64,000 nucleotides of DNA, from assembly GCA_947034895.1 (NCBI GenBank), contig OX344764.1, positions 6,634,001 through 6,698,000 on the forward strand. Direction: 5' to 3'. Position numbers and translations under genes: made by a program. The notes beneath the pieces are model-generated. The model was not told the origin of the DNA and made no database searches. It worked only from the letters and a program-made list of their open reading frames with translations. Of the stretch, positions 481-50,793 are shown one piece after another (the first letter of the stretch is position 1; the number at the start of each line of letters is the position of its first letter). The DNA is from Rhytidiadelphus loreus. Taxonomy: Eukaryota; Streptophyta; Bryopsida; Hypnales; Hylocomiaceae.

Positions 481-1171
481 GGTAAGTCTACAAGCAAAAT
501 TGAGAGTCGGTCTTTCCTTTATGTTCGTCCAGTTTCTGGTTGCTATTGCCATGTTTGTATAATTTTGAATGCTTCACGTTACTTGGGCAGAGGGCAGGCC
601 GCGAAACGAGTCCTGGAATTACGGATTTTGCCGAGGGAAGGCAGGCGGCCCAGGGTGGGGGATCTCCAGTTCCTGTAAGTGCACCAGTGCACGACGACTG
701 TAAACCCGCGATCGTTCTCAAAAAAAATTCATAGCCATTGACCTCCTTGTACAGCTTGTTCCATGTCACGTTGTAAAACCGCCTTACAGTTTCTTCTATT
801 GCGCTTGCATTGGTTGCATCTGAGTTGTGAAGTTCTTGTCTATGTTAAAAAGGCAGATTCAACTCTCCCTTTCTGCCTTAGCCGAATCATCCTACGTCTG
901 GTCCTCGTGTCATCCATCAAATCCAACTGTGTAAGTGTCTGGTAGCTTTGGCCAATGAGTCATATGCCAGTCGCGTTGAAGTCGCTCAGTAGTCCCGTCC
1001 AGTCGCGTCTAAGTCATGTTCAAGTCGCGTTGAAGTCGTGAATGAGTTGTACTTGCGTTCGCAGATATATTTCGAGACTTGGTGCTAACATGGGAATGCT
1101 TCTTGTGACGCTGTTGCACAATTGTGGGTGCATAGATGGGTGGTCCAGGTGAATCATTACGTTGGTAAGCC
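481..1171. other. intron/intergenic, AAGTCG-rich
   Basis: This stretch follows the donor at 481 and holds no convincing coding exon. At 960-1045 there is a cluster of loose GTCGCGTTGAAGTCG-type repeats, related to the AAGTC motifs that return at 3390-3530. Confidence 0.5.
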
Positions 1172-8091: not shown

Positions 8092-9269
8092 TAAAAATTT
8101 TAGTAGAATTCATAGGAGCAATACCACGATGACGCACACACAAAACATCTCCACCTACAAAACAATATAGAAAGAGAAGTGAGTAAAAAAAGACGTCAAC
8201 GTGGCCCTCTTACTAATCCTTAGAGTTGTAGGAGCTCACCGTCGACATTTCAGTACACTGGAATTGGTGAGGCTTAGCGTGTTGTTGGTCAGTCGATATG
8301 TGTGGAGAGTCTGGTAAGCATTACCAGACAGTCACTACGGATGTCGGGAAGAAGGTATGACCATTGGGTACGTTTGTCTTCCCTTAGAAGAAAGGTAGAA
8401 GAGATTTCAGCCGAAGTCTTAAAGTTTGTCGAATGTTCATTCAGTAGGTCGCCAATTGTTTGTAGGCCGTACCTAGCGAGTTCTCGGTTTGTATCCTACC
8501 AGAAATGGAAATCGGAATCCATGTATGTAAGTACCTCATCATCCCACCAGAATCGGCCCACCAGAAACTAGTCGTAAGTACCTCATCAGCGGTGCTTTGT
8601 TTTAGACGCGCGGTTCGATGAACTTGGTGACACGCGTCGAGGCCGCCCTCAGCCCAGTTCCATGTTGTGGAGCCTAGGGAACTAATGGATTGCGCACCAT
8701 GAGCGAAGCTTCAGAAGGGAACCAGTAACCACATTTACGGTTTGGCTTATTTCTGTGGCCGGTATACCTGAGAAGAACCTTGACATTGTGATTTCCAGTA
8801 CGCAAATTTCTTGGTGATTTTTTGGTTAAGGAAAGTCAATGAAATTGAACGAAAGAGAGTCAATGAAATTGAACGAAAAATAAGAGTCGTATATAGATGT
8901 AAGCAAGTAATTATTGCGTGACGGGGTAGACTGTTTTGAAGCGAAAAGAAAGAATCTAATTTAAGTGGAACGCATGTTCATGACATGTTCGCCAACACAC
9001 TGTGACAACAACGGTGGAAGTGGCTTTGAAGTCATCAACCTATTTTTGTTCCATTTGTTAGCCACCAAGAAAATCGTCTGAAAATAGAGTTAATCGTAAA
9101 TAATGGACAATCTGGAACCACGTACCTTATTTCGGGAAAATAAGAAGACGAAACTTCGTGGAGGAACAGTATTGAGGACGGATGGAGTTCTCTAATTTAA
9201 CGTCTTCTCTTTCCGATTCAGAGAGGCAGTAAGGTTTTGGAAGTGCCATTACATTTGCTGTGATGAAGG
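8092..9269. other. no gene seen
   Basis: Includes an 89-codon ORF at 8302-8571 with no recognisable features, and a small tandem duplication GTCAATGAAATTGAACGAAA at 8836-8880. Nothing else is supported. Confidence 0.5.
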
Positions 9270-9301
9270 AAGGCCATATTCATTAAATTGAGACAATGTG
9301 G
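9270..9301 (+). repeat. left TIR of element B
   Basis: Begins AAGGCCATATTCATTAAATT and matches the reverse complement of 27684-27715 at 31 of 32 positions. A partial second copy (CCATTAAATTGAGACAATT) lies just inside at ~9349-9367. Confidence 0.75.
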
Positions 9302-10067
9302 ATTCTCATTTTAATCATCTTCTTAAATTTAGTATGTAGAAGAGTCCATTAAATTGAGACAATTCAAAAAATTGAGACCATAAACTGCTTGAAGAATAAA
9401 GAATTTGTACAAGTATAAGAAATTGGAGGAAAAAAATAGTAGTGAAGGACGTTGAAAGGAGGGATTTTGGATGGGAAACTAGAACCATTTATAATATGTG
9501 CTTAACTAAAATATCTAAGTAAATAGTTTGACATATAGTGAGGTAGAGATTTTTGAAATCATCCATGATAGAATACATTTGTACACCTAGCCTGATCAAA
9601 AACTACAATGTCAAAGTAAAGAATTTGACATATGCTTAGATAGAGAAGTTCATAATTACTTTGTATAGAAAACATTAGTACTCATCGTGTTCCAAAACAA
9701 ATGTCATAGACAATAGAATTCCAATGAAGAACTTACAAAATACACAATACCATACAAGAAATAAAAATAAAAATATATTATATTATACAACATCTATAAC
9801 ATCAAATTCTAAAATAATATAAAAAAAGATCAAAACAATTAACTAAAAGAATAAAAAAACTAAATCTATTTCATCTTCTCCACATGTTTTTTTCTAACAA
9901 CTTTTTATTATATTTTTTTTGCCCTAATCAAAGAAACTATCAACTTCTACAACTCTTTATAATTTATTTTTTTCCATATTTTTTTGTCATCCTCCCTAAA
10001 GTTAAGAAAATAACGTACAAACTCGCAAAACTCCTCATGATTTCCTATGCCTACAAACTATTCATCT
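9302..10067. other. left subterminal region of B, AT-rich, no gene
   Basis: Very AT-rich, with poly-T runs around 9885-9990. It lies between the TIR and the 3' end of the transposase gene. No coding sequence is seen. Confidence 0.5.
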
Positions 10068-12917
10068 TCACTCCGAAGATACATTATTGCTTTCACCAGA
10101 TACATATGCATCCACCGATGTCTGGATTATAGCAATTTGTGTTTTGGGAATTCTAACTCTTGGATCAGAAGTGCCTTCTTTGAAACGTGGCTTCCAAGCA
10201 GTCATAATGCAGTCTGTATGCGTCCAACTCGGAGAGATAGCCTTATCCTCGCACCAAGAATTCCCTTGTTTTGTATCCCATCCAGCATATGTTTTTTCAT
10301 TGGTGTGATGAAAAGACGTAGGTGTCCAATATTGAAGTTGAATCGAATTGACATGACCTGGATCTGGATTAGGATTTGTTAGAGCCCGAGCAAGCCAAAA
10401 TGGACGGAGGTCACCGTCAGCGGGGCGCACAACAACTAAGTAACCTGCATATACATCACGGCCAATACGAAATGAAGGAGGTGGACGATCACGCCTACGA
10501 CCAACAAAAGGTGCATCTTCTGCAAACTCCTCACGCATCGTACCATCATCTAGGTATTGGTCTTCCACCTCATCAACAACACGAGAATTTGGCCAAAATC
10601 CATGCTGCAATGTCTCATGTACCACAAGCGGAGCATTGAGAGCACTTCTCACACCTTCCCAATATTTCCGCACCGGCTCATTCTTCCTCCTAAACTCGCC
10701 AGATAAGTCTTGATTTCCCATTGCCCCCCACAATGCAATGTACCCATCTAAACCCTTGCAAATCTCATCAAAGCAACGCATTTGTTGTGGTGGCAAAGGT
10801 AGAGGACTACCCCTCGGTACTTTAGGGTGCCCATCTATTGTCTCCTTCCACAAGCGAATCCCCCCACCCTCTTTCGGCAACCAATCAACATCGGTACAAA
10901 GGATCTTGTACTACATCAATGGCCACCCATTGGAATCCTTATAAAACTTAAACTGTTGCGCTTGAGAATGACCCTGTAGAGAATCATCGCTTGTATGCAA
11001 GTACCCGTCCACAAATCGCTTAAAATCAGGAACCTCTTCAATGAGATGAGGAATTACGGGTTGTGTTTCACAATCCATGAAAGACTTCATCAACCTCGGA
11101 AGTGTGGGGTAGTCATTCGTCTTCAATTTAGTGCTCCAACGACCAGATAGAGCATCAATGTCCTCATGAGTGTGTCCAACAATGAGGAAATTGATGTATA
11201 TCTCTCGAAAAATAGCTCTATAGACAAGAAGAGAACAGAATGCAAAAACCCACCGATTCTTGTTGTCGCCAGAAGCATTGTCAAGCTAAAGAGTCTATGT
11301 TGGAGGAAGAGGTTGAGCTTCCACCAATACTTCAGGGGGGGACCCGAGAGAGTCCGTACAAATCTCTGAACCTATTAACAAAGCCTCTGTCAGTTCAGAA
11401 CGCTCTCCTCCTACAAACAATTGACGAGATGAATGCTTCGGTTGGGACTCTAGATCTCGCAATAATTTTGCAATGGACCCAATAGTATGGTTGGAGTCTG
11501 TTGGGAAGATGTCCAAACCATAGTGTGCATATCGCACATCTCCATGACCATGAGCAATCATGCCTGTAACAGCGACAGGCATCTTCATGAAAGAATCATT
11601 TCCCTTACTCTTGTGCGAGTAATGAGGGGAAGCAGTCTTTGAGTGATCCATCTTGTCATGGATTATAGTCAAAACCTTGTCAGGATACATCTCAGACATT
11701 GAACGGTTTCCATAGTACAAGTCCCTATGCACCTTTTGCCCCGATAGGTGCACTCTCAATTTGTTAGACCACACGTCTTGCGCTTGTGAACGTGGAGTGC
11801 AAGCACTCTTGAGTTGCCTATATCTATCGCAGGTTCCACAACGAGAAAAACTATCTCCTCTAGCCTTTGGAGCATACTCTGGAAAAGATTGACGACGTAT
11901 GTTGCTCAATCCACTAGCCGAAATATGTTGCAATTGAAGTGAGGAATTGACATTGTTAATCTGTGGTAACTTGTCCTTCCAACGAAATGCAGACGGTAGG
12001 ACCATAGAGGGGACTTTCTCCCCAGACTCAAGGGTCCTCGATTTGTGAGGCATCGTGTCCGCTTCATTCTCCACTAACAATCGAAGAGTTGCTGTTGCTT
12101 GCAAAGTGTGTGTCCGAGGTTTCTTCATTCCAAGGTTGCCATGATGCTCCGGTTTTTGGTCATCTTTTGCCATCTTCTTGTATCTATAAAAGGTAGCCTT
12201 CGATACTCCATGGATGGCACACCAAGCCACCGAACAAATTTCATGGTTTGCCAAGGTGATCATGTCTCTTCCATTGGAATCAGTGTGGGTTTGCTTGTGC
12301 ACGTCAAGCAGACGTGACTTGCGCCAGAACACTCCACCGTCAATATGAAGTAGAGACCGAACGGCTTGAATCTGACCACGTGGAAATGGTTGCAAGCAAT
12401 TCTTCTGGCAACATTTCATACTAGAAACATCAGCAATTGCTTGCTCTGTGAGGAGGGCTTCTTTCTTCGGGAGATTGGTAGGCTCAGTCCTCTCCCGTGA
12501 GCTTTCATAGGAGCGAACTCCAGTCCGAACACGCCGCCTTGAACTGTTTGAAGAGATTGCAGAATTGAAGAGATGCGTTTGCTCGTGATCATATAAGCTG
12601 GCACCATTAAGGTAGACTCTAGATATGTGCCAAGAGTGCATGGACCACATCCACTCCGACGGAACATGTGCCTCACACAAAGACTCTGCAATTTGAATTG
12701 CAACCCGGTCATCACCGAGTGGTTGCCCGTCCATGTCAATGACGAGATCTGCATCAACACTATGACAAATTCCTTTTGCCACCTCTATCCCCTCTTCATT
12801 TCTGAGTGTGACGCATTTGGTATACCAAGAAGCTCGAGGAAATCCCTCGCAGGCTGCAACACCCGGAGACAAAGTTGGCACTGGAACTGTAAACTCGTTG
12901 GCATCTGAAGTATCCAT
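10068..12917 (-). pseudogene. DUF7869-like DDE transposase of element B, three in-frame TAGs
   Basis: One frame of 950 codons runs from ATG (12917) to TGA (10068). It is broken only by TAG at 11297-11295, 11288-11286 and 10913-10911. At each a Gln codon (CAG) fits, for example TL[Q]LDNASGDNKN and LM[Q]YKILC. Order of parts: Cys-rich region with KCCQKNCLQPFPR (~165-180); helix-turn-helix-like GVSKATFYRYKKMAK; second Cys motif RCGTCDRYRQLKSAC (~355-370); RNase H-like core with HDKMDHSKTASP (D421), LDNASGDNKN (D546) and GHTHED (E585). These three blocks fit the D, D(N), E/D pattern of the family. The C-terminus is ~270 residues of Trp-rich sequence. The start was chosen at MDTSDANEF because upstream codons have no coding character. 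The gene faces away from the other genes of B. Expected role: cutting and joining at the TIRs. It is inactive as read, unless TAG is decoded. Confidence 0.7.
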
Positions 12918-12959
12918 TCTGCGTGTGAAAGAACACCAATTAATTAATACTGTTGTGAG

Positions 12960-12978
12960 TATCCTCGAGGCGAGGATA
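12960..12978. repeat. palindrome in transposase 5' leader
   Basis: TATCCTCG-AGG-CGAGGATA lies 43 bp upstream of the transposase ATG. It belongs to the B-specific palindrome family (arms TTATCCTCG/CGAGGATAA around 3 bp). The position suggests a leader hairpin or an operator for autoregulation. Confidence 0.8.
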
Positions 12979-13396
12979 AAAAACAAGTATGACACATTGA
13001 CAAAATCAGGGGCAAAGTGACTTCCAGTGGAGGGTAAAATTATAAACCATTTTGTGATCATGTATACTAATCCATCCACCTAGACTAATGAAGTTAAAAT
13101 GCGATGAATTAGCACAACAAAACCAAAAAACAGAATCTAATCTATCATCTTTGCATTCCTTAGAACAATCAGAATTATATTACTTCATCTACCAAACACT
13201 CTAAACTACGAGTATGAAAAGCAAAAGGTATCTTCGATTCGAAGATAGCAGACGTCAAAGATTGAGAGATTTTATGCATTCCCCCTCATTAGACTGTCAG
13301 AATGATTCTGTATGTAAACTCTATATATCATCTCGAATGTCAGTGAATGTCTTCTTTTGTCTATGGTTATTATTTACATTCTATGCATTTGGGCGA

Positions 13397-13815
13397 TTAT
13401 CCTCGGCTCGAGGATAACCTCTATACAAGTGTGTGATTATTCTCTAGTCTACGATAACCTCCATGCATGTCTGTGATTATCCTCGAGCCGTGGATAATCT
13501 CCAACATGTCCGTGACTATCCTCGAACCGAGGATAACCTCCATTCTATCCGTGATTATCCTCGGACCGAGGATAACTTCCATGCATGTGTGTGATTATCC
13601 TCGGACCCAGGATAACCTCCATGCATGTGTGTGATTATCCTCGGACCAAGGATAACCTCCATGCATGTGTGTGATTATCCTCGGACCGAGGATAACTTCC
13701 ATGCATGTGTGTGATTATCCTCGGACCGAGGATATCCTCCATGCATGTTTCGGATTATCCTCGAACCGAAGATAACCTCCATGCATGTTTCGGATTATCC
13801 TCGAACCGAAGATAA
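13397..13815. repeat. palindrome array 1, 11 units of 40 bp
   Basis: Palindromes start at 13397, 13437, 13477, 13516, 13555, 13595, 13635, 13675, 13715, 13755 and 13795, a strict 40-bp period. Each unit is a TTATCCTCG-N3-CGAGGATAA palindrome plus a ~19-bp spacer (CCTCCATGCATGTGTGTGA). The second unit is the most decayed. The spacers are near-identical, so this is not a CRISPR. It lies upstream of the transposase gene. Confidence 0.9.
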
Positions 13816-14700
13816 CCTCCATGCACGTATGTATTAGAGAAATTTATAGTTCCGATATTTACGGCGTGAAAATCGGTTGTTCTTTCTCGAACATAACATA
13901 CGAAGAACAACACTTGAGACGTGACACCGGAATTCTGAATACGCGATGAATCGGAGGACTAAATAATACTGCATGTACCTTTGCTTAAAACTGAGGAGCA
14001 AGAACAGGAATCTAGCATTCAGTGAAGAGGGAAGAAGGGAAGTAGAGGAACTTACGACAACCCGTGCGAAACTAAGCCACCTACTCACATAAACATGTAA
14101 ATGAATGCAAAAACATAAGTTCAAAGGCCGTGCGGTAGCAATGTCAGCAAGAGGCCGCGGAGGAGGGAAATCTGGAAAACACGAGAGAGGAAATGAGGTG
14201 CTCGAGGAAGAGAGACGATGCATACACTAGCGGGAGAAAATGAGCAGGAAATTCAACGGCATTTGAGTTCTTCATGGTTTTCTGGACGTAGGGGAGAAGT
14301 ACTTGCTCGGATTAGGGGGCCGTTGACATTCGATTCGCCCACATAATGACAATGATGTGGAATATGAAGGAGCTTTTCATTAATAGAATTGGAATATGAC
14401 GTAGCCGATCTTTTTATGATTTAAATAGGGGACTTTATATTTTGTGGAATCCATGGCAGTCACCTTTTTCCGGAGAATGTGGAAATATTCTTTAAAAGCA
14501 TAGCGGAATTTAGAGTTTGGCAAATTTGGCAATTCATACACCACCTACCAATCAGCCTTCTTTTTAAAATAGTTTATTCTTAAGTCTGATTTAGATGAAT
14601 GTATAGGGGAGGTATCCACACCAATTTGGCACATGGTGGGTCCAATGTGCATTGGCTATAATCAAAATTGTACCTATTGTAAGCTTTCAGTAGGGAATGA
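13816..14700. other. no gene seen
   Basis: Mixed-composition intergenic DNA between the palindrome array and the telomere-like tract. A 129-codon minus ORF at 13834-14223 has no recognisable features and poor composition. Confidence 0.45.
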
Positions 14701-14899
14701 AGTTAGGGCTTTAGGGTATAAGGATTAAGGTTTTTAGGGTTTAGAGTTATGGTTTAGGGTATATGGTTTAGGGTTTAGGATATAGGCTTCTAGGTTTAGG
14801 TTATAGGGTTTAGGGTGTAGAGATCAGGGTTTTTAGGGTTTAGGGTTTAGGGTATGTGGTTTAGGGTGTAGGGTGTAGGGTGTAGGGTGTAAGGTTTTA
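14701..14899 (+). repeat. degenerate plant telomere-like tract (TTTAGGG/GTGTAGGG)
   Basis: About 20 imperfect TTTAGGG-like heptamers, with GGGTGTA variants at the right end. This is the plant (Arabidopsis-type) telomere motif at an internal position. Short echoes occur at 15046-15062 and 18964-18978. Confidence 0.8.
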
Positions 14900-17800
14900 A
14901 CAAAGTCTTGAAGAAATGTAAATTATATGTTCATGAATTCAATATTTTTATCATTAAGATTTTGCGGATTATATTGACAATTCATATTTGCTTTTGAAAT
15001 TCCATATCCAGAAGTTTAAGGATGTTTCTTATTTAGATTTATAGGTTTTGGGTTTAGGGTTTTCACCTTAAAGCACACGATTAAATATAATAGTTTCTAT
15101 TTTGAATATTATTAGTTCTAATTAAAAAATGATGTCCAAAGTTGTTGACTTTTAAATGACCGTACAATCTCGAATTTAATGTCATAAAAAATATACACAA
15201 CTTTGAGTTCCATTATTCAGAATAAAGAATAATGTACAATTGTGAATTTTTTAAGATTCAATTCTATAAAATGTAGTTCTTGTAATAGTTTCTTTTCCAG
15301 AATGTTTTAACACATTCTAAGGAATTTGCATTTATAGAGGAGCACATTGGAAACGAAAGAAGAAACGAAGCCATTGATGTTGTACTTCTTAGAATTGAAA
15401 TTTTAATGAGGACAACTAGAGCAGAAACAGAAAATATTGTACGAGTTAAATTATGATAAAAAAATTTGAAAGAATAATGATTCTTCAACATAGTATATTG
15501 TTCTGTTCAATTGTTTTTTTTAAGGGTTTAGAATGATAAAGGGGGAAAACCAAAAGTTTGCACAACAATGTAAAGAAGTACTATAAAAATATTTAAAAAA
15601 ATCTTTTAAAAATTAAAAAGAAATAAAAAGAAAATGTTTCAATATTTCAAAAAGAAAGTAGGATACTTGAACTATACAAAGTAGGACCCCTATTTTTACA
15701 AGCTTGGTAACTATATGAAGAGTAAAAAATTTCAAAGACCTTTGTTCTAAGAAGTCATCCTGTCCACTTTCATCACATTCGAATTTCGAAGCTATGATTT
15801 GAAGAATAATTGGCTTCAAATGGGCCTACTTTGTTAGGACATTGAAATGAATGATGGATTTTGTATTCATTTGCTAACAATCATTATTATTAACTCCATC
15901 ATGGTTTAGAGACTTGAACCACTTCAATGTCTCATAAAATTATAATCATTAATATGAGAGTTTCACCTCCTAGAAATGAATGTATTACAACGTATTGCAT
16001 ACTATGACTTCGAAATTGTATGAAAATACTATATTCTATAAGTTTGAGAAATTCTTTACATCTTGTGTAATTTAAACACAAAATTATTCAAAAAATGTAA
16101 GTTATGTATCAATGAAAGGCCTATTTTTTAACTACTATGAACAATTTTTAGTGTTGTACTTTTAGAATTGTGTCATGAAAACTTTTCAATAAACAAAATA
16201 TTATATCAAAATCATTCTTAATCTTTTTAAAATGGAATTAATTAATAAAACAAGCCAAGAGTACTTTGTACTTTAAAAACTAAACTCAATGCACAACAAT
16301 CATGGAATTTTAATGAAGACAACCGAGTGAAAAAAACGTAGAAGTTTCATTTTTTTTGCCATTCCACCCTGAAACCTATTCCATGAATTGAGAAATAATA
16401 GTTCTTCAAACTACAAAACATGAATACTTCATTTATATTTTTTGTTGTAAAGAACCAAACAACTGGCACCAAATTAATTCACAGAAGAATCATAATTTAA
16501 AGTTCAAAAAATTTTCAACTTCTACATTTTATTTCTTGTCCCAATTAGTGGTTATTCCATACCTTTTTAAATGTTAAATCTTTAAAATATGGTGTTTAGA
16601 CCTTTAAGGGAGAGAAGTATCTAAAAAGTAAAAGTTCTTTATAATTTAAAAAAAACAAATTGTAAAATTAAAGAGTTTATTATTTATTATTCTTTTATTA
16701 ATGACAATACTTTGTATTACATATAGAATTTTAGTGTATGGAATGCCCAAAATGTAATGTAAGCTTTGAATAGAGTATGGAATTTGAAAATTGTGTTTCG
16801 GTGCATAAATTCTAAAGATGCTTGATTCATTTGAAATTAAAAGTAAATTCCAAAAAGCTCAAAAAACACATTGGTCATTTAGGGTGTTGAAACCCTAAAC
16901 AATTTAGAAATATCATTGATTGAATTCTATTCAAATTTGATTAAATTAGCACATATGAAAAATCCCAATGGATATGGAGTATTTCCCACATTCTTGTGGT
17001 ATGAAGAGAAAGTCTACATTCAATCAAAAAATTTGAAACAAATGAATTATGGTGGTGGAAGATATCATACACACTTTGACAATTGTTTGATTTATGTGTT
17101 CAATAACTCTTAGTCCCATTAGAGGGACTCTTCAAATTCCTTAACTCCTCAATGACACCAAGGCCATTTCCTTGTCAATGAGTGACAAACAATCTTGCCG
17201 TATAGGACACAAATGCAACTATTCATGCTTTAGAATTTGTGTGGAAAGGAAAGATCATGTACAATAGTTTGTTGTGCAATGAGTACTTTTTCATTTTTTT
17301 AAGCCAACAATACATCTAGTGACACAACAAACGATATCCATGATGATTGACCTAGAATTCAAGGATTAATTTTTTTTTTAACTACCAACATTTAGAGAGC
17401 CCAAATGTCATGAAATATAATTTGTGGTTGTATAGTCAATTCTTTGAAATTGAATGCCACCTCTTTGAATAACTGTGACCTACAAAAACTTAGTGAAATG
17501 AAGTTCTCTTACATTCTTTAAAGCATAATGACTATAAGGCCATTTTCTAGTCAATTAATGACAAAGAATCTTTATATGTAGAACAAAAATGCAACTATTC
17601 ATTGTCCAAAAAGTATGTAGAAAGGGAAGATTATCTACAATAGTTTGTCTTCCTATGTGTATTTTTTAGGGTTTATTTAAACCAACAATTCTCACAGGGA
17701 CAAAATAGATGATTTCTGCAGTGACCAATCAATCGTTTAAGGCTTAAGGTCTTAAGGACACCTACGTGTAGAGGGCCCCAAGCTCAAAACTAGGGTTTTG

Positions 17801-17905
17801 CGATGTACATTTGGCAAAATAGGTTTGGGACAGGCAATAGGCTCGGCATGGTAGGTTTAGGGTTTAGAATTGTGGGTTGAGGAAATAGGGTTTAGGGAGC
17901 CAGCA
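14900..17905. other. AT-rich intergenic DNA of element B, no gene seen
   Basis: Three kilobases of AT-rich sequence between the divergent gene blocks of B. Two weakly related stretches (near 17150-17290 and 17530-17650) share wording such as CATTTYCTWGTCAATKARTGACAAA, which suggests an old internal duplication. No coding exon is supported. Confidence 0.5.
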
Positions 17906-18175
17906 GGCTCAAGAATGTACGTTTTGGAGGTTAAAGACTTGGGAACGCAGGTTTGAGAGTTCGAAGACTCATGAACGTAGGTTTAGGAACGTACATTTAT
18001 GAGGTTGAAGACTTGGAAACATAGGTTTGGGAGTTTGCAGACTAATGAATGTAGGTTCGGGAGTTCGTAGACTCTTGAACGTAGGTTCGGGAGGTTGCCG
18101 GTTCGGGAACGTAGGTTCGGGAGGTTGCCGGTTCGGGAACGTAGGTTCGGTCGCAGGTTCGGTCGGTCGAAGGCT
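17906..18175 (+). repeat. ~30-bp tandem repeat (GAACGTAGGTTCGGGAG)
   Basis: Eight or so degenerate units of about 28-33 bp ending in GAACGTAGGTT(C/T)GGGAG. The last two are identical, so the array has expanded recently at its right end. Composition rises sharply in GC here. Confidence 0.75.
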
Positions 18176-18229
18176 CGGGCTCGGTCATAGGCTCGGGCGG
18201 TCATCTCTCCGGCGCGAGGGTTCACCATC

Positions 18230-18610
18230 ATTCTGCAACGCGAGGGTTCAGGGTTCAGCGTCTGCAGCGCAATCTCTCCAGCGCGGGTTTCCAGGGCGGT
18301 TGTAGTCTTCTTTCGTGTGTTGCTTGCAGTGTTGGGAGCTTCAGTGTTGGGAGCTTCAGTGGCGGAACTAATGCAACTTGAGGTGCGGGACGGGAGGTGA
18401 AGCGCGGGAGGCGCAGGAGGTGAGGCGCGGGAGGCGCAAGGAGGCGCAGCGCGTGGAGGGGCGGGAGGCGCAAGGAGGCGCAGCGCGTGAGGTGCAGCGC
18501 GGGAGGCGCGTGAGGTGCAGCGCGTGCAGCGTAGGCAGGTGCAAGAGGAGGCGCGGGAGGCGCGGGAGCTGAAGCAAGAGGAGGTGAAGGAGCGACATTG
18601 GCTGCTGTTT
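18230..18610 (+). promoter_or_regulatory. GC-rich island upstream of the ParB/methyltransferase gene
   Basis: A 380-bp island rich in GCGCGGGAGGCGCAAGGAGG units, surrounded by AT-rich DNA. It lies 1.5 kb upstream of the + strand gene of B. It could be that gene's promoter or 5' UTR (inference). ORFs here on both strands are compositional artefacts. Confidence 0.35.
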
Positions 18611-19273
18611 CAGGCAGGGTTTAGGGGAATCTGAGCACTTGATTTTTGGTAAGAAGAGTTATGTACTTTGATGTGTTTATTCAATTTGAAATTGTTGTAC
18701 TTTGTTTTCAACCTTTGTGACTGTTTCTGTTTTCTAGTGTTGTGGTTCTAGAATTCAGGGCAAGGTTCTTGAATCTGAATTAAGGTTCTTGAATTTTGGT
18801 TGTAGTTACTCATTCATTCATTGTGCATGTTCAGTGTGAAATTTCAGTTGTTATGTATTCATGAATTCTTCACCTTCTTGCAATGTGAATGCAAGTGCTA
18901 CCAGCCTCAGTTTTAGAGTTTGGGTTTGAATTTTTTGATCATTTGTTTCATTTGTTTGTGGATTAGGGTTTAGGGTGTGTGCAGTATTCATTGAACATTA
19001 GAGTGTGTAGAAATTCTATTACATTTTAGAATCTACTGCAGGAAGTGTACAAACAATATAATTTGCAGGTGACCAAGTCTTCAGTTGTAGTATTCTGTTG
19101 TTTCCACCCTTGCTTTTGCATTCATTGCGTGATTTCAATTTTGTTTATTGCATGTATTAATTGAATGTTTACTAAATTCTATGTCTGTATTCTACGTGTG
19201 CCTAGATGATTAGTATTACATTTAGGGTTTTCGTCAAAATTATCATCAGTTATTACTGAGTTACCAACAAAAA
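18611..19273. other. no gene seen
   Basis: T-rich, intron-like DNA containing TTGTTTTC and GTGTGTAG stretches. It could be a 5' UTR intron of the gene starting at 20158. Confidence 0.35.
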
Positions 19274-20112
19274 TTATCCTCGGTCCGAAGATAATGATCA
19301 TCGAGTCTAAGATAAACTGTAGTCTATAAAAGCTAAGAACCCACAGGTGTAATGAAAAACACAGCAAGACTAACAATTATACTCGGCTAAAAAGTAAAAG
19401 CACAAAAAAACACCCATCATTTCAAAAAAAGAAACAATTATCCTCGGCCCGAGGATAACTAACTAACAAGCATGCAAAAAAGAAAAGAAAAGAAAAATAA
19501 AAAATTATCCTCGGGCCGAGGATAATTGTCAAACAAACAAACAAACACAAAAATATATTAATTAGAAAACAATCATCCTCGGCTCGAGGATAATTGTCCA
19601 AAAAAATATAATAAAATTAAAACAATTATCCTCGTCCCGAGGATAATTTTTAAAAACAAAAAAATAATTTAAATAAAAAACAATTATCCTCGGGCCGAGG
19701 ATAATTGTTGAAAACAAAAAATAATTTAAATAAAAAACAATTATCCTCGGCTCGAGGATAATTGTCAACCAAAAAAATAATACAAAATATTTTAATTAAA
19801 ATAAAAAACTATAAGCAACGAAAATAATATAATGAAATTAGAATACGAAAATAATATAATGAAATTAGAATAAGCAAAATTTATACCCCTCTAGAGTATA
19901 AAAGCAACAATGTAATTAAAATAGAATAAGAGAACGTACAGTATTATCTTCGATCCGAAGATACTGAACCGTAGCATTGACATACAAATAAATTCCATAT
20001 GTTGATAATTGTTTTATACGATTTGAAGCCCAGGACGGTATTATTTAGTCAGATTACATTAGTCACAACATTTTTCATTTGTTATCTTCGAGGCGAAGAT
20101 AAAAATCAAATT
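19274..20112. repeat. palindrome array 2 (about 10 copies)
   Basis: Palindromes start at 19274, 19438, 19505, 19573, 19626, 19684, 19741, 19944 and 20092, with a decayed one near 19297. The first seven are of the CCTCG/CGAGG type and the last two of the CTTCG/CGAAG type. Spacing is 53-68 bp in the core and the spacers are A-rich. The last copy is 46 bp upstream of the ATG at 20158. Confidence 0.9.
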
Positions 20113-21582
20113 ACAACTCTGATTTTCACGATTTGCTATGTACAGATTTATACCAACATGTCTACGGACTCTGAGTACGATTACTCAGCTACACTACCGT
20201 TTCTGGAGCCATTTAGCAAGTGGGTGGATGAGGAGCCCTTCATAACGGAGATGCCAGAGCTCTACGGCAAACTCTGGCAATTCAAAGCCGTTGTCGACTC
20301 TTGGACATTCGGTATCAACCAGTCGAAGGATTACATCTACCTACGTCACCGAGTAAAAGACAGTGGGATTTACGTGAATTGGAACCTCAGTGAGAAGGTC
20401 GCTCTCGTAGAGAATCACCAAGACAAGTACCTAGTCATCACACTACAAGGGTACGACAACGCAGGGAGGGAAACAAAGCATACGCATTCCATTGTCTGCC
20501 ATGAGGATGACACTGTGGGAGTGTTCGACTTCGACAACCTCATCGCCGACTTGCACTTGGCAAACCATGATACCTTGGCTGAAGACTTCATTTCAAGGTA
20601 CCACCCCTGGGTTAGAAGGAACGCCAGGGCCATGGCGAGGAAAATTGGGTACATGTTCCATAAGCTCACTGAGCATGCCAAGGAACATGTCCAAAAAGGA
20701 CCTGCCCGAGCGAGTCACGGTCGTGGTCATCAAAGGCAGGAAACTGCGGCTGAGACCAAATCAGCGTCAGGAGTGCGTGGCCGAACAGGGAGTAGAGGAA
20801 GTGGGAGAGGGACCGCCCGCGCTTAGGCCCAGAAGAGAAAGACCCCGGACACCAGTACCGGCGAGCCGAGTGACAAACGGAGGAAATCTGTAACGGACAC
20901 TCGTCCAGCAACCGCTGGTAGTTCAGGCTCTATTCTCACAAATGTGAATCCACGGAAGCCATCAGATAAGAAAGCAATCGAAAAACATGAAGTGGCTGGA
21001 GCATATCAATCAGATTTTTGGAAGGAAAATGGCAAGTGCTTCATTTTTCATCCCCAGATCTTCACCGTAGACATCAAACAATGCTTCCTGGCCAAGGAAA
21101 GATATATTATCCGGAAGCTAGAAATGAGAATGGTGTTTGAGATGAAAGACACCCTCGTTCATCTCGGCTCAGAGCAGTAAAGACAAAAGCTTTGCTTGAC
21201 ACTTGTAGATGCCAATAAGAAACTTCTGAAGGAGCGTCCGAAGGATTGGGATTCCATCAAGACCGGAGGCTTCTTCATCATCAATGGCCAGCACAGTGTC
21301 ACTGCAGCCAAAATGCTACAACAAGGAGGATGCTGTGAGACTCGGAAGATCGAGTTGCAAACGTGGGAGGCTATAATCGTCTGGACTAGAGACCCGAAAC
21401 AGCTCACAGCTATTTCAAAATGGTGCAATGCCTCCAATCACCTCGTTCACAGTCAGCCAACGTGGGGGAACCAAATTTCCGCGTGTAGGTAGGTTTGGAA
21501 GGAGCTCAAGCGGCCTACCAACATCGAGAATGAGGGATTGGTGAGGCGGAATAAGGCTGTCTTCAACCTTGCAGCATACAAG

Positions 21583-21786
21583 GTAGGTCCATTTTATCTT
21601 CGTGGCGAAGATAAAATGTATATGTTCATGATCTAGTTATTTCAATGTACTGCCTCTACAGGGTTTGTTATCTGTAATTTCATGTTCTGTGATCTCTGTC
21701 TCAACTATCCTCGGGTCGAGGATAATGGTCAGAAGAATGTATGCATTGAGTATTGAGCTTACTTCATTGAATATTCGTCTCGACAG
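21583..21786 (+). other. intron 1 with two palindromes
   Basis: GTAGGT...CGACAG, 204 nt, phase 0. It contains one CTTCG-type palindrome (21594-21614) and one CCTCG-type (21705-21725). Confidence 0.7.
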
Positions 21787-23118
21787 GATTTTGTCGACAC
21801 TGTCATGATCCGATATGGCAGCATCAATCCGGACAAGGAGGGAGCACAGGTGAAGCTCGCATCGGATGTCAAGAATGAAATCCGAATTATTACCTTGGCC
21901 GATGAGACTTACCAGATGTGGAAGGAGTTCCTCCAAAAACACATGGAAGGATCACTAATTGATCCTGTGACGCGCAAACCATTCAAAAGCGCAAAGACCT
22001 TCAACGAGAAGAATTTCTCATTGAAGAGGGAATTTTTCAAGCACATGGGACACTTCACAGACATTGATCTGAAGGATTACGTCCTCCATCTGCTTGGGAG
22101 AACAGAAGGTCGCACACGGGACTACCCGAAGGTCTCAGTGGGCGCTTCAAAGATATTGTGCGAGGACAATTATAAAGCCGAGCACTGGGTAGAGAGGAGG
22201 AAGCAAAAGAAAGTCATCATGGAGGAATTCATGGCCCTCGATAAGTCCTTGAAATTCAAGGACAGACATGGGGAAGTCATTGACATGGCGTGGAAGCAAT
22301 GGAAGCGCGACAACATGTTTTCCTCGGCAATGTGGGATTTCCTCCTCACTGCCCCTCCCAACCAGTTCTTCGTTAAGCGCCTCACCAACGAGGCGAAGAA
22401 GAAGACAGCAATAGACTACAAGGACAACCCAAAATTGTCGATGGTCTATAACATGTTCAAGACCTTCTTGAAAATGAAGAAGCGGGTGGAGCCAATGGGA
22501 GGGGATGTATTCATTCGGGGTCACCAATGCTATCCCCAAGCTCTTGTGACCACCCACGTGTGGCCCTACGTCATGAGAGACCTTCGTGTCGCCGTCATAG
22601 ATTTTTGAATCCTCCCTAGACCAAATCCAGGATCCGGTGACAGTCCGCCATGCTTGCCATTGCTGAATTTTTTGACAGATCACCTGAGGTCGGTGTTGTC
22701 TACTCCTGATGTTTGGTTATGGATTCTAGGGAATTCATATGACATCGACGCGGCAAAGAAATTTGCGGCGTCGAAGATGACAGGGTACGAGGTCAAGATG
22801 TTCTCCTACCTACCAAGTAAGGCCGAGAGGATGGACAACTCGACCAACCGTGCGTTGGCGCCCCCGGTGAAGCTCCTATTTGTAATGAAGAAATGGGATG
22901 ATGGGGAGCCAAGATATAAGGATGTAGTGAAGAAGGTCTATGCCACAGATGACATTCCTTACTACACGGATTTTCAGAAGAATACCGAGGCGAAATATAG
23001 AATCCATGCGAGTGAGCTCAGGATGGAATTCTATATTGACATTCTCTAGAGTTTTGCCGTGACTGGAGAAAACGTCATCGGCATTTACATTGGCTCAAAG
23101 TTTATGATTGCTGCCAAG

Positions 23119-23268
23119 GTGAGACTCTATGTTTTGCCTTTATCTTCGGCTCGAAGATAAATTGTCGTATTGTCAGTTATCTTCGGCTCGAAGATATCCT
23201 TGTCTGTTGTATGATGTGCAAAATGAGGGGTTGAGAATGAGTATTAACAACTGCTTTTTCTTCTATAG
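23119..23268 (+). other. intron 2 with two palindromes
   Basis: GTGAGA...TTCTATAG, 150 nt, phase 0. It contains CTTCG-type palindromes at 23140-23160 and 23177-23197. Confidence 0.7.
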
Positions 23269-24131
23269 ATGTATGGTCTCTATTATTATGGCCTTACTGA
23301 CCCGCATGCATCCCAAAAACTTCGAGAAATGGCGAAGTATGGCAGTAAATTAGACATCAACGATTTCTGCCATGAAAACTCGCCATATCTTCCAGATTAT
23401 GAGCGACCTCGTAACCTTCAAACTCCAGATGTGGACTCGGAGTCCACACCCTCAATTGATGGAAATGCGGGTGTGTCAAGGGCGGATCGGGATTTTCTTG
23501 GTGACGAGGGTGCTTCCAATCTCGGCATCAATGAATACGGAACAAATACAAATATTGTTCGAGGAGGAAATGTGGAAGAATCCCACGTACAGGACAAGGG
23601 CCCCGAATCCGCCTCCAAAGGAATCCAAGACTCCGGAGCGGATACGCGGAGGAAAAAGAAGATCGGAAAGAAGCCCTTGGAGGAGATCATACCGGACATC
23701 ATAATCAGTGATGTGGAGGACTCCTATTCCGATATGGAGGACTTCAACTATGATGGTCCGGATGATGGTGGCGCGGGTCCATCACGGGGCACCCATTCTC
23801 CAAACGCACCTGCAGAGGCACACCCTGGCCATACTCCCGAGTCCAGGGAGCCTTCAGACCCAACTCATGTTCCTCTCCATCCTGTGAAGCAGGAGCTCAA
23901 GGATTTTTGGAGGCAGAGAGAGGAGAGGAAGGCCTTCAAGAGGGCAGAGCAGTCAAGAAGAAGGGAAGAGGAGCTGGCGGAGAAGGAGGCATTGAAGAAA
24001 GAACTAGAGAAATTGCGTGAAGAGAATGTTTCTCTGAGAACGCGATCACAAGACCCCTCTGCCTCTCATCCTGATGCCCATGACGCTGGTGGTGCATTAG
24101 AAGCCATAGGTCAGCAGACCGCCGAGAAGGA

Positions 24132-24332
24132 TTATCCTCGAGTCGAAGATGATCCTCTCCCACCTGTCGAAGACGATATTGTTCCCCCTTCTCCGCCTCC
24201 ATTGGAACAAGAGCAGGTGTCCAATCTTCTAGTTGATAGAACAGATCAACAGATCCAGGAAGAGAGAGCTCCCCTTGGAACTGGAACAGAGGGAGCTGAT
24301 AGTGCTCTGGATTATCCTCGGGGCGAGGATAA
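24132..24332 (+). repeat. two palindromes inside coding exon 3
   Basis: Copies at 24132-24152 (partly decayed) and 24312-24332 (near-perfect) lie in frame in the coding sequence. There they encode DYPRVEDD and DYPRGEDN. The 21-bp length keeps the frame. Confidence 0.8.
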
Positions 24333-24588
24333 TTTGAGCCAGCCGCCTGCATTGGAGGTGCAAGCGGAGTCGGTCCCGGAGACACAGGAAGTGGGTGACG
24401 TTGTTCCAGATCCCATCCCCCCTCCACCTGAGCCACGAGTACCGGAGGTGGAGATAGAGTTTGAAAATCCCCCGGACGACGACGACGAGACTGTCGACTA
24501 CGGGGAATATTTGGATGAGGACGCCGGAACCCTGGAGTTCGGTCAGGTACACTCCCCTCCATCGTCAGATCCCTACGATATTTCATGA

Positions 24589-25091
24589 TTGAGTCTGTCG
24601 AATGTGATGTGATGGATGTTTGTTTTGGCTTCCATCATGTTCATATTCCCAGTGAGAGACTCTCATGCCAATTCCTTCTGTCTGACAGGAGGGAGTGGAC
24701 AGTCTCTAATTGTGAAGCGTGGACGGACTACCACTCTATGACTACGTTTGTAGCATAGTGTAGATACCGGAACGGAGTGTAGTTGGTACTTGTATACAAT
24801 CGGCTAGAGATCAACAAAACCGTTAGACCGGGTGTATCATAAATTATTTTGAAATAAATATATGTCAAACTTTTCTTCAATGCGTGTAGTGTCTAATGAA
24901 TTGATATTGCCCATGTTTGTGCCCAGCGCGGACAACTTAGAAGTGTGCACCGCCTGTTGGCACTCAAACAATCACTTAATGGAGGGGTTCTGCAGTCACT
25001 TAGTGGGGTTCAATGCTTTTCACCGTTTTATGGGTCGCCTGATTCTGCCTTTCAACAGGTAACTACATCTCTTTCGTGTTGTGTTTGATCA
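24589..25091. other. intergenic or intron between B cargo genes
   Basis: Holds a 66-codon ORF (24862-25062) with CxxCW...H..H character but no recognisable family. It ends with an acceptor-like TTTGATCAG at 25083-25091. Confidence 0.4.
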
Positions 25092-25914
25092 GGTAGTAAC
25101 GGCAGGTCGAAAAAACAGAGTGCCGCGGAGTGTGTCCTCGTTAGTGGTCCAACCGCGACAGAAGTGGTTGAATATCGTGTTCGATTTGAACGGAGTGCTG
25201 TGTGAGAGCCAGGGTCAAGGGCCCCATAAGAAGAAAAAACATTACACAGTCCGAGATAATGTATTCTCCCATCGAACCCCAACCCTCATTGGGACGAAGG
25301 CCGTCTTCGTTCGTCCCAATGTGCGCGAGTTCTTAGACGAGGTTTCAAAGATTTCGAATCGCGTCGTAGTTTGGAGCTCCATGTTCAAGAAGACGGTGGA
25401 ACCCGTTGCGAGTTTCCTATTCCAGAACTGCAAGGCTCCCTACCACATCCTAGGTCAGGACAACTGCAGGAGGGTAGAAACCTCGGAAGGAAAATTTCTT
25501 CATCAGGCTGGGAGTCCGTGGAAGACTCTGCTCTTCAAAGTGCTTGATGAGAAATTGTTCCTAGACCCTCAGGATCCCAACTCATTCAACAAGGACAATA
25601 CCATTCTCATCGATGATTCTCCGCAAAAGGGCATCCTCAATGAGAATGGGAATTGCATATACCTTGAGAGTTGGAACCCGTACATGCGTGGAGACAATGT
25701 GCTCGTCGGCACTCTCATTCCGTGGCTGAAGAACCTACACGAGGAGTGTCCACTCGGACGCCTTCGTGAGTTTGTAGATCGGAACCGCATAGGTGTGGCG
25801 CCCTTGGTCGCATCAGACGATCAAGCCAATTATATATTGGATGGGATGAGGATGTCCGCGAAGGCATTCGAGTCGCGATTTGTGTTGCGGGGGATGAATC
25901 TAGTGATTGAATAA
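25092..25914 (+). CDS. FCP1/NLI-interacting-factor-like HAD phosphatase (element B cargo)
   Basis: Intact reading frame of ~273 codons to TAA. No ATG precedes the domain, so an upstream exon must supply the start; the TTTGATCAG acceptor at 25091 is the likely junction. The FCP1-homology fold is clear: motif I FDLNGVLCES, then FVRPNVREFLDEVSKI, motif II VVVWSSMFKKTVE, and motif III ILIDDSPQKG with NCIYLESW. Total length and order fit small C-terminal-domain phosphatases. Motif I is DLNGV rather than DxDx(T/V), so the general acid/base Asp is Asn; activity is uncertain. Known family members dephosphorylate the RNA polymerase II CTD or other phosphoserine proteins in the nucleus. Unlike its neighbours it has no internal stop. 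A more degenerate relative sits in CACTA element A (1172-3229). Confidence 0.7.
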
Positions 25915-26109
25915 GAGAGACGAAGGAAGAAGTAGACTTCTCAATGTCTCAGTCAATCATAGAACTCGTTGTACATTATTTTTGTGAATACGGATTTTCA
26001 TGTACATTTCATTCTTGTGAATTAGTAAAATTTTGAACTTGTAATCAAGTTTTCTGGCCTCTTTTGGTTGTACTGTTTTGTTCAACATGTGTTTGTTTTC
26101 TATGTTGAG

Positions 26110-26278
26110 TTATCTTTGGGTCGAGGATAATTGTGGTTGATGTCTGTTATCTTTGGGTCGAGGATAATTGTGGTTGATGTCTGTTATCTTTGGGTCGAGG
26201 ATAATTGTGGTTGATGTGTATTATCTTTGGGACGAGGATAATTGTGAAGGATGTGTTTTATCTTTGGGTCGAGGATAA
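26110..26278. repeat. palindrome array 3, five units of 37 bp
   Basis: Starts at 26110, 26147, 26184, 26221 and 26258. The left arm is TTATCTTTG and the right arm CGAGGATAA. Relative to the perfect form the left arm has two C-to-T changes, which leave G.U pairs if transcribed. The array probably lies in an intron ending at the acceptor TTGCTGTAG (26305-26313). Confidence 0.88.
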
Positions 26279-26313
26279 TTGTGAAAGATGTTTTGACACT
26301 GCCATTGCTGTAG

Positions 26314-27237
26314 GTTGGAGGATCCATTCTACACTTTCTTCAACAGAGGGAACCACTGACGAGGAGCTTGCTGTCTGGATCGGATGTGTCACTTTCAATG
26401 AGGTCCGGCTCGATTGGAGGGAGCTTCGTGCCGTCCTCCTATTCTAAGCCTAACTTCCTGGGCTCGGCCACCGATGCGGCTTCGGCGGCCATCAACTTCT
26501 CGAAGGGGAATATGGAGGAAGGCGTGGTAGATAGCCCATCTAGTCGGGGTCTTGTGAGGACACCGATTTGCTCACCATCGCCGATGAAGAGGGCCAGCTC
26601 CACCCCAAGTCGTTTGCGTTCACAGTCGCCGACTTTGCGAACGCCAAACATCCTGCATAGGAAATTGTATGCGGATGACGAAGACTGGGGTATGGATCCT
26701 TGTCTCGAGGATGGAATACTGTTGCCGGTGTCGATCGCACATCAGGCTGTGCAGAGCAAGGAATTCAATATAGATCCGAAGGTTGGGGATCCAATCAATG
26801 CGGTACCGTTGGGTGCATGCACTGCACAGCAGCTTCCACGCCTCGTTGAGATTCCTATCTCGTTTCCCTCAAAATCCGTGGGCGGAGTATCTTTGCCTTC
26901 TGTTGTACCTATTTCCCACCGAACGACTCTTGGAGACCTACGGCGGACAAATTATACACGATCGACAACAACTGCCGATCCGTACATAAGCACTGTGAAT
27001 AGATCGATACCCCGGCTGCCTCCTCGAGGTTCTAGGTCTCTTTCCAATACCGAGATTCCGCGACGTGAACGAAAACGGAAGAGAGAGGCCAAGGATTTAA
27101 TGATGATGGGGATGTTCAATACTTTCAGTAAATACAGTGGATCACCCAAGTCTTCTCGACGCGAGGATATCTTCAGAGGATTGGCCAAGTTGAAAGCCTT
27201 GGAGGCAGCCAAGGAGGCAACAAATAGCAGTTCTTAA
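26314..27237 (+). CDS. basic Ser/Arg-rich protein, terminal exon (element B cargo)
   Basis: The frame is open from the acceptor TTGCTGTAG at 26313 through 307 codons to TAA. The first half is Ser/Pro/Arg-rich with SPSPMKRASSTPSRL and RLRSQSPTL, typical of phosphorylated nuclear proteins. The C-terminus has a bipartite basic patch (RRERKRKREAKDL) likely to be a nuclear signal, followed by a helical tail. I recognise no family. The first exon was not found; it could be a 3' exon of the FCP1-like gene by alternative splicing or a separate gene. It is intact over this exon. Confidence 0.5.
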   Translation, partial: VGGSILHFLQQREPLTRSLLSGSDVSLSMRSGSIGGSFVPSSYSKPNFLGSATDAASAAINFSKGNMEEGVVDSPSSRGLVRTPICSPSPMKRASSTPSRLRSQSPTLRTPNILHRKLYADDEDWGMDPCLEDGILLPVSIAHQAVQSKEFNIDPKVGDPINAVPLGACTAQQLPRLVEIPISFPSKSVGGVSLPSVVPISHRTTLGDLRRTNYTRSTTTADPYISTVNRSIPRLPPRGSRSLSNTEIPRRERKRKREAKDLMMMGMFNTFSKYSGSPKSSRREDIFRGLAKLKALEAAKEATNSSS

Positions 27238-27683
27238 TCCAAGAACGATGGTTTGCCGAGTGATCCTCGTTCATAGTGGTCTTCTTTTTGTAGAAGGATC
27301 ATTACTATTAATAGAATAGTCATTCATATACAAAAACCAATTTTTAGTAAGGGTGAGTGCTCTTTGTGTGCACATAGCCTCTACATTTTTACACAAGACA
27401 TTCAATCATTAGAATTAGCAAGATTAGATATACCGGGAAGTGAAGTATATAGAGAAGTGAGAGAAGTTGATTCAAGTAAATTCATGTTCTTCAATGTAAA
27501 GGGACCCGCTTTTATAAATATTACATTTTATTACACAACTCATGTGGAGTTCCATTTTGCACGTTCACGTTTCTTAATTGTTTTGGTGTGGAATTGCTCT
27601 TAGCCTTCTACCGATTTGCCTATTTTTATCTTCGCCTTCAACAATTTATCTTTGAATGGAGGAGCCTTAAGTTCTCAAAATGA
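27238..27683. other. right subterminal region of B
   Basis: No gene. Half-palindromes (TTTTTATCTTCG at ~27625, TTTATCTTTG at ~27648) occur close to the TIR. Confidence 0.5.
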
Positions 27684-27715
27684 CCATATTGTCTCAATTT
27701 AATGAATATGGCCTT
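27684..27715 (-). repeat. right TIR of element B
   Basis: Inverted copy of 9270-9301 with one mismatch (A for G). Confidence 0.75.
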
Positions 27716-28650
27716 AAGGAAGAAGAATGTCACAAGTTTCGTGAAAGGAGGACCACATTCGAGCATGGCGTTTCCATATGTCGAAGCTGCTGTAAGTGTT
27801 TACTCGTCTGTGACAGTATAAAATACTTCTGCGTATCAAAGAACTCAATTGCTAGAAACCCTTGAAGAACTGAAGAAGCAATTGGCAATGTACCCTTTCT
27901 GTGTATTACTGTATTCGAAGTTCTTTAAGGCATCATATTTGACTTTACTGCGGCGTTCTGAAATCGACGTTTCATTATTGATGCGGATGCTATCGTTCAT
28001 ACGGACAAATTTTATTCAAAAATTAGTATTACAGTGCATGTAGTTTATGATAAGATAGAAAGTGTGTGCATTTCCTTCACAGGAGGAATAGAGGATGTCC
28101 ATGTACTTTAATTGCATTGAGGTATACGTACACTGTCTGTCACTATTCGCATAGTTTGGTTTCGTTTTTCTCTAGTAATCATTTGTACGACTAGTCTGAC
28201 ACTGAAAAGACATTTTTTTGTTTATTTGTAAGAATATGATTTCATAAATTATGTAAGAGGGTTTCCTACTGCATTTGAAAGGAGTTCTATCAATGTACAA
28301 GAGTTATGTCTGTTTTTCGTTTTAAGTCTGCGGATACTTTCATGTACGGAAGTCTAGTATACCATTCGAACGCCTCGAAGACGCCAGTGGAATTCAATGG
28401 CATAGGACACCGGTAATTGATTGTTTTGTAGTAGTCCCAGAACGTGAGAAAAGCATGTACTGCAGTTTTATTTGATATGTTGTTTTCTTTATTTTAAGCG
28501 AACTTACAGTTTCGGCAGTAGAAGAAAGCTCTGTTTACGTTATGGAATAGAACTAAAAACTACTTTAAATCGGGAAGTCGGTGGCGTTTTGATAGTATTT
28601 ATCCCATTTGATGTAGGTAATGAGTAATGACAGATTCTGTGGATGAAGAT
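27716..28650. other. no gene seen
   Basis: AT-rich DNA flanking element B. Short ORFs of 60-64 codons have no recognisable features. Confidence 0.5.
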
Positions 28651-28654
28651 TCCG

Positions 28655-37158: not shown

Positions 37159-37166
37159 GTCCACGC
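37159..37166. repeat. 8-bp target site duplication, left (GTCCACGC)
   Basis: Matches 56984-56991 (GTCCACGT) at 7 of 8 bases. The satellite consensus here is GTCCACGC followed by TGGTGACC, so the right copy has one C-to-T change. Eight base pairs is the hAT target size. Confidence 0.85.
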
Positions 37167-37175
37167 CAGGGTTGT
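37167..37175 (+). repeat. left TIR of element D (CAGGGTTGT)
   Basis: Nine bases, the inverse of 56975-56983. hAT ends commonly begin CAGGG or CAGTG. Confidence 0.8.
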
Positions 37176-37354
37176 CTTGTCTGACATATTTTTGGGTTTA
37201 GGCGTCGTGTATGACATCTGACGTCGCGTGTCGCGTGTCACGAAGTGTCGAGTTTACTTGACATCGCGTCGCGGAGGGGTAAAAAATTTTACCCCATGGT
37301 AAATAGATTTTGCCTACGTGGCAGGGCTTCAGAACTGACGTGGACAGCCAGCGT

Positions 37355-43373: not shown

Positions 43374-43405
43374 TGGAGATGCTCTTGAGATTTGGGGCAA
43401 GGAAT

Positions 43406-50620: not shown

Positions 50621-50793
50621 CAGCTCATTTTATTCACGCTTGGATGACATAGGGTGTTTCACGAGAACATTGTATTTTTGTAAATGTTAAATGTGATAGG
50701 ATTACGTTTAGCATTTTTTACACCTACGGTTTAGGCTTGCAACCCTAAACCGCATAGTACTTAGTTGGCTACTTTTGAGACGAAGTGATCGTT

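Follow-up and report, generated by a model that had tools for sequence, protein, structure and literature searches.

A stretch of 64,000 nucleotides from the moss Rhytidiadelphus loreus (contig OX344764.1, positions 6,634,001 to 6,698,000, or G000:C4:6634001-6698000 of the 407-Mb assembly; hereafter the window) contains an 18-kb transposon in which, besides a DUF7869 transposase and three cargo genes, one 21-bp dyad is repeated many times. The dyad, TTATCYTCG-NNN-CGARGATAA (search pattern TTATCYTCGNNNCGARGATAA), is present 31 times within the element at one mismatch or less, and 29 of the 31 sites are non-coding. Each consists of two half-sites ATCYTCG around a 3-bp spacer of free sequence. 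We propose, with moderate confidence, that a dimeric protein encoded by the element binds these sites, most likely the product of the first cargo gene (ParB-fold and methyltransferase-like), and that the element carries its own recognition system, most likely one directed against silencing. The original prediction, made from the letters of this DNA, had described the transposon and its genes; the dyads and the decay of the window copy were absent from it.

In all the sequence that we read, the dyad was confined to the transposon. With up to three mismatches, 34 dyads were found in the window, all of them between the ends of the element (0.08 expected), and no dyad appeared within four mismatches in the 45.6 kb of the window outside it. 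Four random 10-kb stretches of the genome and 12.1 kb of sequence flanking other copies contained none, so that confinement is judged on about 96 kb of non-element sequence. The spacing is constantly 3, with no dyad cores at spacings of 0-2 or 4-8. Apart from the sites upstream of the genes (Table 1), the ParB/methyltransferase-like gene has two dyads in intron 1, two in intron 2 and two in exon 3. All 31 keep at least 3.66 kb from the left end and at least 1.41 kb from the right end (a three-mismatch match at 10062 is nearer to the left end), what speaks against classical subterminal transposase sites. One exact dyad found in a single IMG/VR contig (L001) was judged a chance match, being the only one in a collection of that size.

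Two diverged copies of the element, C2a (C2-49441690; L016, L017) and C3b (C3+52112527; L014, L015), reveal which parts of the sites are kept. Using the window sites that align without gaps (26 of 31 for C2a, 20 of 31 for C3b), the arms diverge by 7.1% and 4.7%, respectively, against 47% and 33% for the spacer and 36% and 32% for 12-bp flanks. This contrast is less clear in the four close copies (arms 1.6-2.7%, flanks 3.4-7.1%). Among 64 distinct dyads with at most two mismatches the ATC/GAT positions are invariant and the CG positions vary mainly by C-to-T, on either strand. Conserved half-sites around a free spacer are the pattern that a dimeric DNA-binding protein would leave. In exon 3 of C2a (L017) a 102-bp coding repeat adds two in-frame dyads without shifting the frame.

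Relatives of the element appear to echo the dyads, here at the level of peptides and not of DNA. Proteins predicted in public data for the ParB gene, from homologs 38-56% identical to the window protein, often extend beyond the splice donors. Past these donors, dyad-type peptides (xSSxRR/G, YPRxED) were found in 12 of 31 homologs (8/16 for exon 1, 4/15 for exon 2), and a further frame-C match in P0001 is doubtful. The same peptides occur in 1 of 116 transposase relatives and in none of 38 NIF relatives, weak controls that mostly offer no intron tail.

The 18-kb element is a real transposon. Its 32-bp termini, predicted from the outset, are the sole such inverted pair in the window at three mismatches or less (31/32 identical, 0 expected by shuffling). 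The left end matches at least 39 places elsewhere in the genome at 99% identity, with alignments beginning at window positions 9265-9270 (66-71 of a 201-base probe), and this copy number is a lower bound because scoring covered 40 of the 496 first-look candidates. Ten further copies were taken in 10-kb pieces, 19.7 kb each, and the right end was within reach in six. Together with the window copy these make seven complete copies, 16.9-19.1 kb long, that run from AAGGCC at one end to GGCCTT at the other and are all flanked by identical 4-bp target duplications (AAGG, TAGG, TTGG, ATGG, AAGT, ATAG and TTTG). The boundaries are thus shared by other copies, and the coincidental dispersed repeat that the original prediction had considered is not borne out. 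Larger parts of three of the four remaining copies match the window, and the stretches fetched from them hold 5, 12 and 20 dyad cores; the fourth (C3+20027965) is reduced to the first 2.5 kb of the element and lacks dyad cores. The copy in the window is itself decayed, with three in-frame stops in the transposase and five in the ParB/methyltransferase-like gene; every tested frame is open in one of the seven complete copies. C2a and C3b are 80-84% identical to the window in ParB exons 1 and 2, 96-97% in the NIF gene and 94-97% in the transposase. With segments so unequally diverged the family is probably a mosaic whose copies exchanged parts, and one single tree would therefore mislead. A degenerate telomere-like TTTAGGG array (period 7, 27 copies, 72% matches) lies within the element at 14703-14897.

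At the fold level, the first cargo gene encodes a protein with a ParB fold and a putative methyltransferase fold, the two parts that had been predicted from motifs. It was modelled as four exons at canonical splice sites, and exons 1 and 2 are free of indels in all seven copies at identities down to 80%. Fold comparison placed the exon 1 product in the ParB/sulfiredoxin superfamily, with KorB chains among the structural matches (8qa8, 8qa9 and 7bnk being the KorB or ParB structures concerned); for exon 2, the first 50 matches listed by Foldseek also include an Alba and some DNMT2 chains. Profile searches of Pfam, NCBIfam and PHROGs matched the protein to neither a ParB nor a methyltransferase family (in PHROGs all matches were weak, E 0.04 or more, and to other families), and sequence comparison found no ParB or methyltransferase chain among PDB sequences; the identity is therefore visible by fold comparison only. 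The nucleotide motif of ParB CTPases is GERR, and in its place 16 of 16 homologs have NGQHS. In beta-class N6-adenine methyltransferases motif IV is DPPY/F/W, and none of 14 homologs has it: at the corresponding position, inferred from strand order, 13 have D-x-R and one N-x-R (a 15th alignment row was too short to score). The methyltransferase-like domain appears to lack the canonical catalytic motif, and the predicted methyltransferase would survive as a fold and fail as an enzyme. No relatives were confirmed in prokaryote genomes or viral contigs.

The second cargo gene has a NIF domain (59.7 bits against a Pfam cut-off of 21.8). The catalytic motif of NIF/FCP1-SCP phosphatases is DxDx(T/V); the window has DLNGV, and among 38 homologs D-x-N was found in 30, N-x-N in one and no motif in seven. 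Hence the HAD phosphatase-like protein of the original prediction keeps its domain and its DLNGV and IDDSP motifs and loses the catalytic one, while the predicted basic protein is indeed there as gene 3, an open frame on the plus strand without Pfam family. The ratio of nonsynonymous to synonymous substitution (dN/dS), taken between an open copy and C2a/C3b as the deepest split, was 0.11/0.13 for exon 1, 0.09/0.10 for exon 2, 0.34/0.30 for the first part of exon 3, 0.03/0.11 for NIF, 0.29/0.22 for gene 3 and 0.72/0.14 for the transposase. The cargo genes are shown to be under purifying selection (0.03-0.34 across this split); among close copies, with few changes, dN/dS is uninformative (0.04 to 1.6). 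Matching sequence sizes, the whole basis here, suggest that the genes of the element travel together in other samples: source sequences of equal size pair ParB with transposase genes (46150, P0026 and P0037; 493283, P0013 and P0081), ParB with NIF (5311, P0022 and P0152), transposase with NIF (1444176, P0076 and P0183) and the two halves of the ParB gene (10519, P0008 and P0020; 9091, P0009 and P0027). A second NIF domain (PF03031, E 2.3e-10) is found in a 686-amino-acid open frame at 1169-3229 (+), 6 kb left of the element, together with a central decapeptide-like repeat (VKAAE...) below the Pfam cut-off. It was rejected as part of the element because its best match to the cargo NIF protein (E 0.35) was too weak to use.

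The mutations of the element are consistent with decay of 5-methylcytosine set by the host at CG and CHG. Among five close copies, 144 substitutions are private to the window copy; C>T and G>A account for 102 of them and the opposite changes for 13, and the rate per available site is 2.8% at CG and 2.7% at CHG, against 0.7% at CHH. In the other close copies the two directions stand at 20:0, 49:5 and 29:4, a similar bias that is weaker (127:85) in the copy that has diverged furthest.

The best candidate for the binder is the ParB-fold protein, since palindromes are what ParB proteins bind and since its gene has nine sites upstream and four in its introns, the intronic ones being echoed in relatives. 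We infer both the identity of the binding protein and the effect of its binding. As a dimer, it would bind the dyads that precede the genes or lie within the ParB introns and would assemble on the DNA of its own transposon and on little else. The most likely use would be to keep the genes of the element expressible against host silencing, as VANC proteins do, which are not known to be ParB-like; the main alternative is autoregulation. Of the tools for marking or protecting its own DNA that had been predicted for the element, the ParB-fold cargo stands and the dyads add candidate self-tagging sites, whereas the catalytic motifs of the methyltransferase and the phosphatase are missing. A bolder and rather doubtful version sees a eukaryotic counterpart of ParB-parS, in which a ParB-fold protein fused to a catalytically repurposed methyltransferase-like domain would load at some 30 dyads, coat the 18-kb element and, with the NIF partner, would maintain transcription by Pol II and block host methylation there and nowhere else. 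If so, relatives with ParB proteins no more than 38-56% identical would have retained one and the same operator.

The dyads could also serve autoregulation alone, as operators through which the ParB-like protein would tune transcription of the transposase and the cargo in the manner of the plasmid repressor KorB, without taking part in silencing. We regard this as possible but clearly less than probable: sites precede the transposase (12959-13815), the ParB gene (19274-20102) and gene 3 (26110-26278), and KorB appears among the structural matches, but some 30 sites, including those in introns and exon 3, exceed the needs of promoters. Operator control of the KorB type and a VANC21-like role both fit, and the data decide for neither; we favour anti-silencing because the sites extend beyond promoters and the copies bear marks of silencing. 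An unlikely explanation is that the transposase or gene 3 uses the dyads as internal sites, for pairing the ends or regulating excision. In other large plant elements, such as En/Spm with its TNPA, element proteins bind numerous short motifs in the interior, and gene 3 is basic, but the 31 sites avoid both ends as described, are found before and within the ParB gene, and recur as peptides past its donors in relatives. GATAA, a common core of plant factor sites, ends each half, and the dyads might be host transcription factor sites used as enhancers; their absence from the random stretches, the copy flanks and the rest of the window, about 96 kb in all, makes us doubt this strongly, since a motif of the host would be expected in its own genes as well. 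Hairpins in the transcripts, with a 9-bp stem and a 3-nt loop, are very improbable. Near-perfect inverted repeats are present throughout, some in introns and exon 3, but at position pairs 6/16 and 8/14 of the 64 distinct sequences C-A mismatches (13) are about as frequent as T-G (15), so wobble pairs are not preferred, and the loop is free. Hardly credible is a neutral tandem repeat, palindromic by chance: 21 of the 31 sites do lie within three tandem arrays, but the arrays have unrelated units with the dyad alone in common, ten further sites lie elsewhere, in the two diverged copies the flanks differ 5-7 times as much as the arms, and the peptides recur in relatives.

The element is presumably a large cut-and-paste DNA transposon with a DUF7869 transposase. 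As predicted, this gene is on one strand and the cargo genes on the other (minus and plus, respectively). PF25273 matched one piece of the window sequence with E 1.1e-31 and an open copy with E 1.4e-47 (162.2 bits, cut-off 26); the frame is open in three of the seven complete copies. The candidate acidic triad of the proposed DDE enzyme comprises D421 and D546, which are unchanged in all 13 aligned transposases, and residue 585 (E of GHTHED), a position occupied by E or D in 12 of them. Sola DNA transposons have a 4-bp target duplication, as do all seven complete copies here, a feature that other superfamilies have too. With residues 300-949 as query, 116 relatives were found among 7995 scored candidates, and the seven with an organism name are all from mosses (three from Ceratodon purpureus, four from Physcomitrium patens). 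The C. purpureus relatives (P0047, P0112, P0145) have locus tags with VG and UG, suggesting, if the tags are rightly understood, V and U sex chromosomes. No literature on DUF7869 was found among open-licence papers.

Table 1 Features of the transposon in the window
Feature	Position	Strand	Basis or remark
Left target-site duplication AAGG	9266..9269	n/a	Sequence and copy comparison
Left terminal inverted repeat	9270..9301	+	31/32 with right end; boundary common to other copies
Transposase, 949 amino acids, DUF7869 domain	10068..12917	-	Pfam PF25273; 3 in-frame stops here
Dyad site, 42 bp upstream of transposase start	12959..12979	n/a	Kept in 7/7 complete copies
Dyad site, 2 mismatches, outside the 31	13228..13248	n/a	Window scan
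10 dyad sites (one mismatch or less), 40-bp tandem repeat, upstream of transposase	13397..13815	n/a	Repeat and dyad scans
9 dyad sites (one mismatch or less), 6 in 57/67-bp repeats, upstream of ParB/methyltransferase-like gene	19274..20102	n/a	Scans
Exon 1, ParB/Srx-fold domain	20158..21582	+	Splice sites, homologs P0015 and P0017-P0031, fold; 3 in-frame stops here
Intron 1, dyad sites at 21594 and 21705	21583..21786	+	Splice sites, copy comparison
Exon 2, helical region then methyltransferase-like fold	21787..23118	+	Homologs P0001-P0014 and P0016, fold; 2 in-frame stops here
Intron 2, dyad sites at 23140 and 23177	23119..23268	+	Splice sites, copy comparison
Exon 3, low-complexity tail	23269..24546	+	Encodes DYPRVEDD at the 24132 dyad and DYPRGEDN at the 24312 dyad
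Putative last exon with terminal stop	24689..24709	+	Splice signals only
NIF/FCP1-SCP-like HAD gene, DLNGV and IDDSP motifs, 5' end provisional	25090..25914	+	PF03031 E 3.5e-16; 38 homologs
5 dyad sites, 37-bp tandem repeat, upstream of gene 3	26110..26278	n/a	Repeat and dyad scans
Gene 3, basic protein without Pfam family, first exon provisional	26398..27237	+	Open frame from 26314
Right terminal inverted repeat	27684..27715	-	31/32 with left end
Right target-site duplication AAGG	27716..27719	n/a	Sequence and copy comparison

Other repeats or possible repeats were found in the window. A hAT-type element at 37563-40976 (-) has two distinct open frames, one with DUF659 (E 7.7e-37) and the other with the hAT dimerisation domain (E 1.6e-5). 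Three long frames, 41766-43436 (-), 50779-52167 (+) and 55193-56380 (-), have in common the motif WCHIxKxFP ... ANL and match no Pfam family at E 0.01; they are possibly genes of another repeat family. The regions 28540-30065, 36454-37253 and 56806-57475 contain one repeated block (REQGHQHGQVALGAERSG...), open in several frames on both strands, which is probably a dispersed tandem repeat.

A ParB-fold protein with many dispersed palindromic sites on its own replicon is known from KorB and the O_B operators of plasmid RK2 and from ParB-parS. The moss element resembles them in its ParB fold and in its many dispersed palindromes, and differs in being a eukaryotic transposon with NGQHS for GERR, a free 3-bp spacer and a fused methyltransferase-like domain. 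Fungal transposons with TET/JBP genes are likewise DNA transposons with DNA-modification cargo, thought to aid escape from silencing, though of another enzyme class and in other hosts (PMC12730594).

The closest gene content is that of Sola1-1_Ec32 from Ectocarpus, compared here by its description. It is a giant transposon of 21.5 kb with a 1104-amino-acid ParB-like and DNA methyltransferase protein encoded, as in the moss, opposite the transposase strand, and its authors suggest that this protein binds and marks its own transposon (PMC12477816). It is a named Sola1, while the moss element is known as DUF7869; its methyltransferase is a predicted N4mC/N6mA enzyme, while the catalytic motifs are missing in the moss; and the passages compared have no mention of internal dyads or a NIF gene, both present in the moss element (PMC12477816). 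ParB-methyltransferase cargo is therefore already in print, against the claim that the gene set was undescribed, which holds for the DUF7869 setting and the NIF partner. As far as the open-licence literature shows, the DUF7869 and moss setting, the NIF partner, the lost catalytic motifs and above all the dyads are new. The algal self-marking suggestion, in the part of the source available, names no target site (PMC12477816), and the dyad is a candidate for such a target. It is exact, its constraint can be measured, and it is present in open and decayed copies of one family, which makes that suggestion directly testable.

The placement of the dyads is in turn that of the VANC system: VANC21 recognises VANDAL21 of Arabidopsis through a short motif in introns, intergenic parts and tandem arrays, and the dyads likewise lie in introns and other non-coding parts and are amplified in tandem (PMC5735166). 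There the motif is a 9-mer, with no palindrome mentioned in that paper, against the 21-bp dyad of the moss, and anti-silencing has been shown for VANC21, whereas for the moss element we propose it (PMC5735166). If the proposal is true, the moss transposon would be a second and unrelated case of the VANC principle, the escape from silencing through sequence-specific self-recognition.

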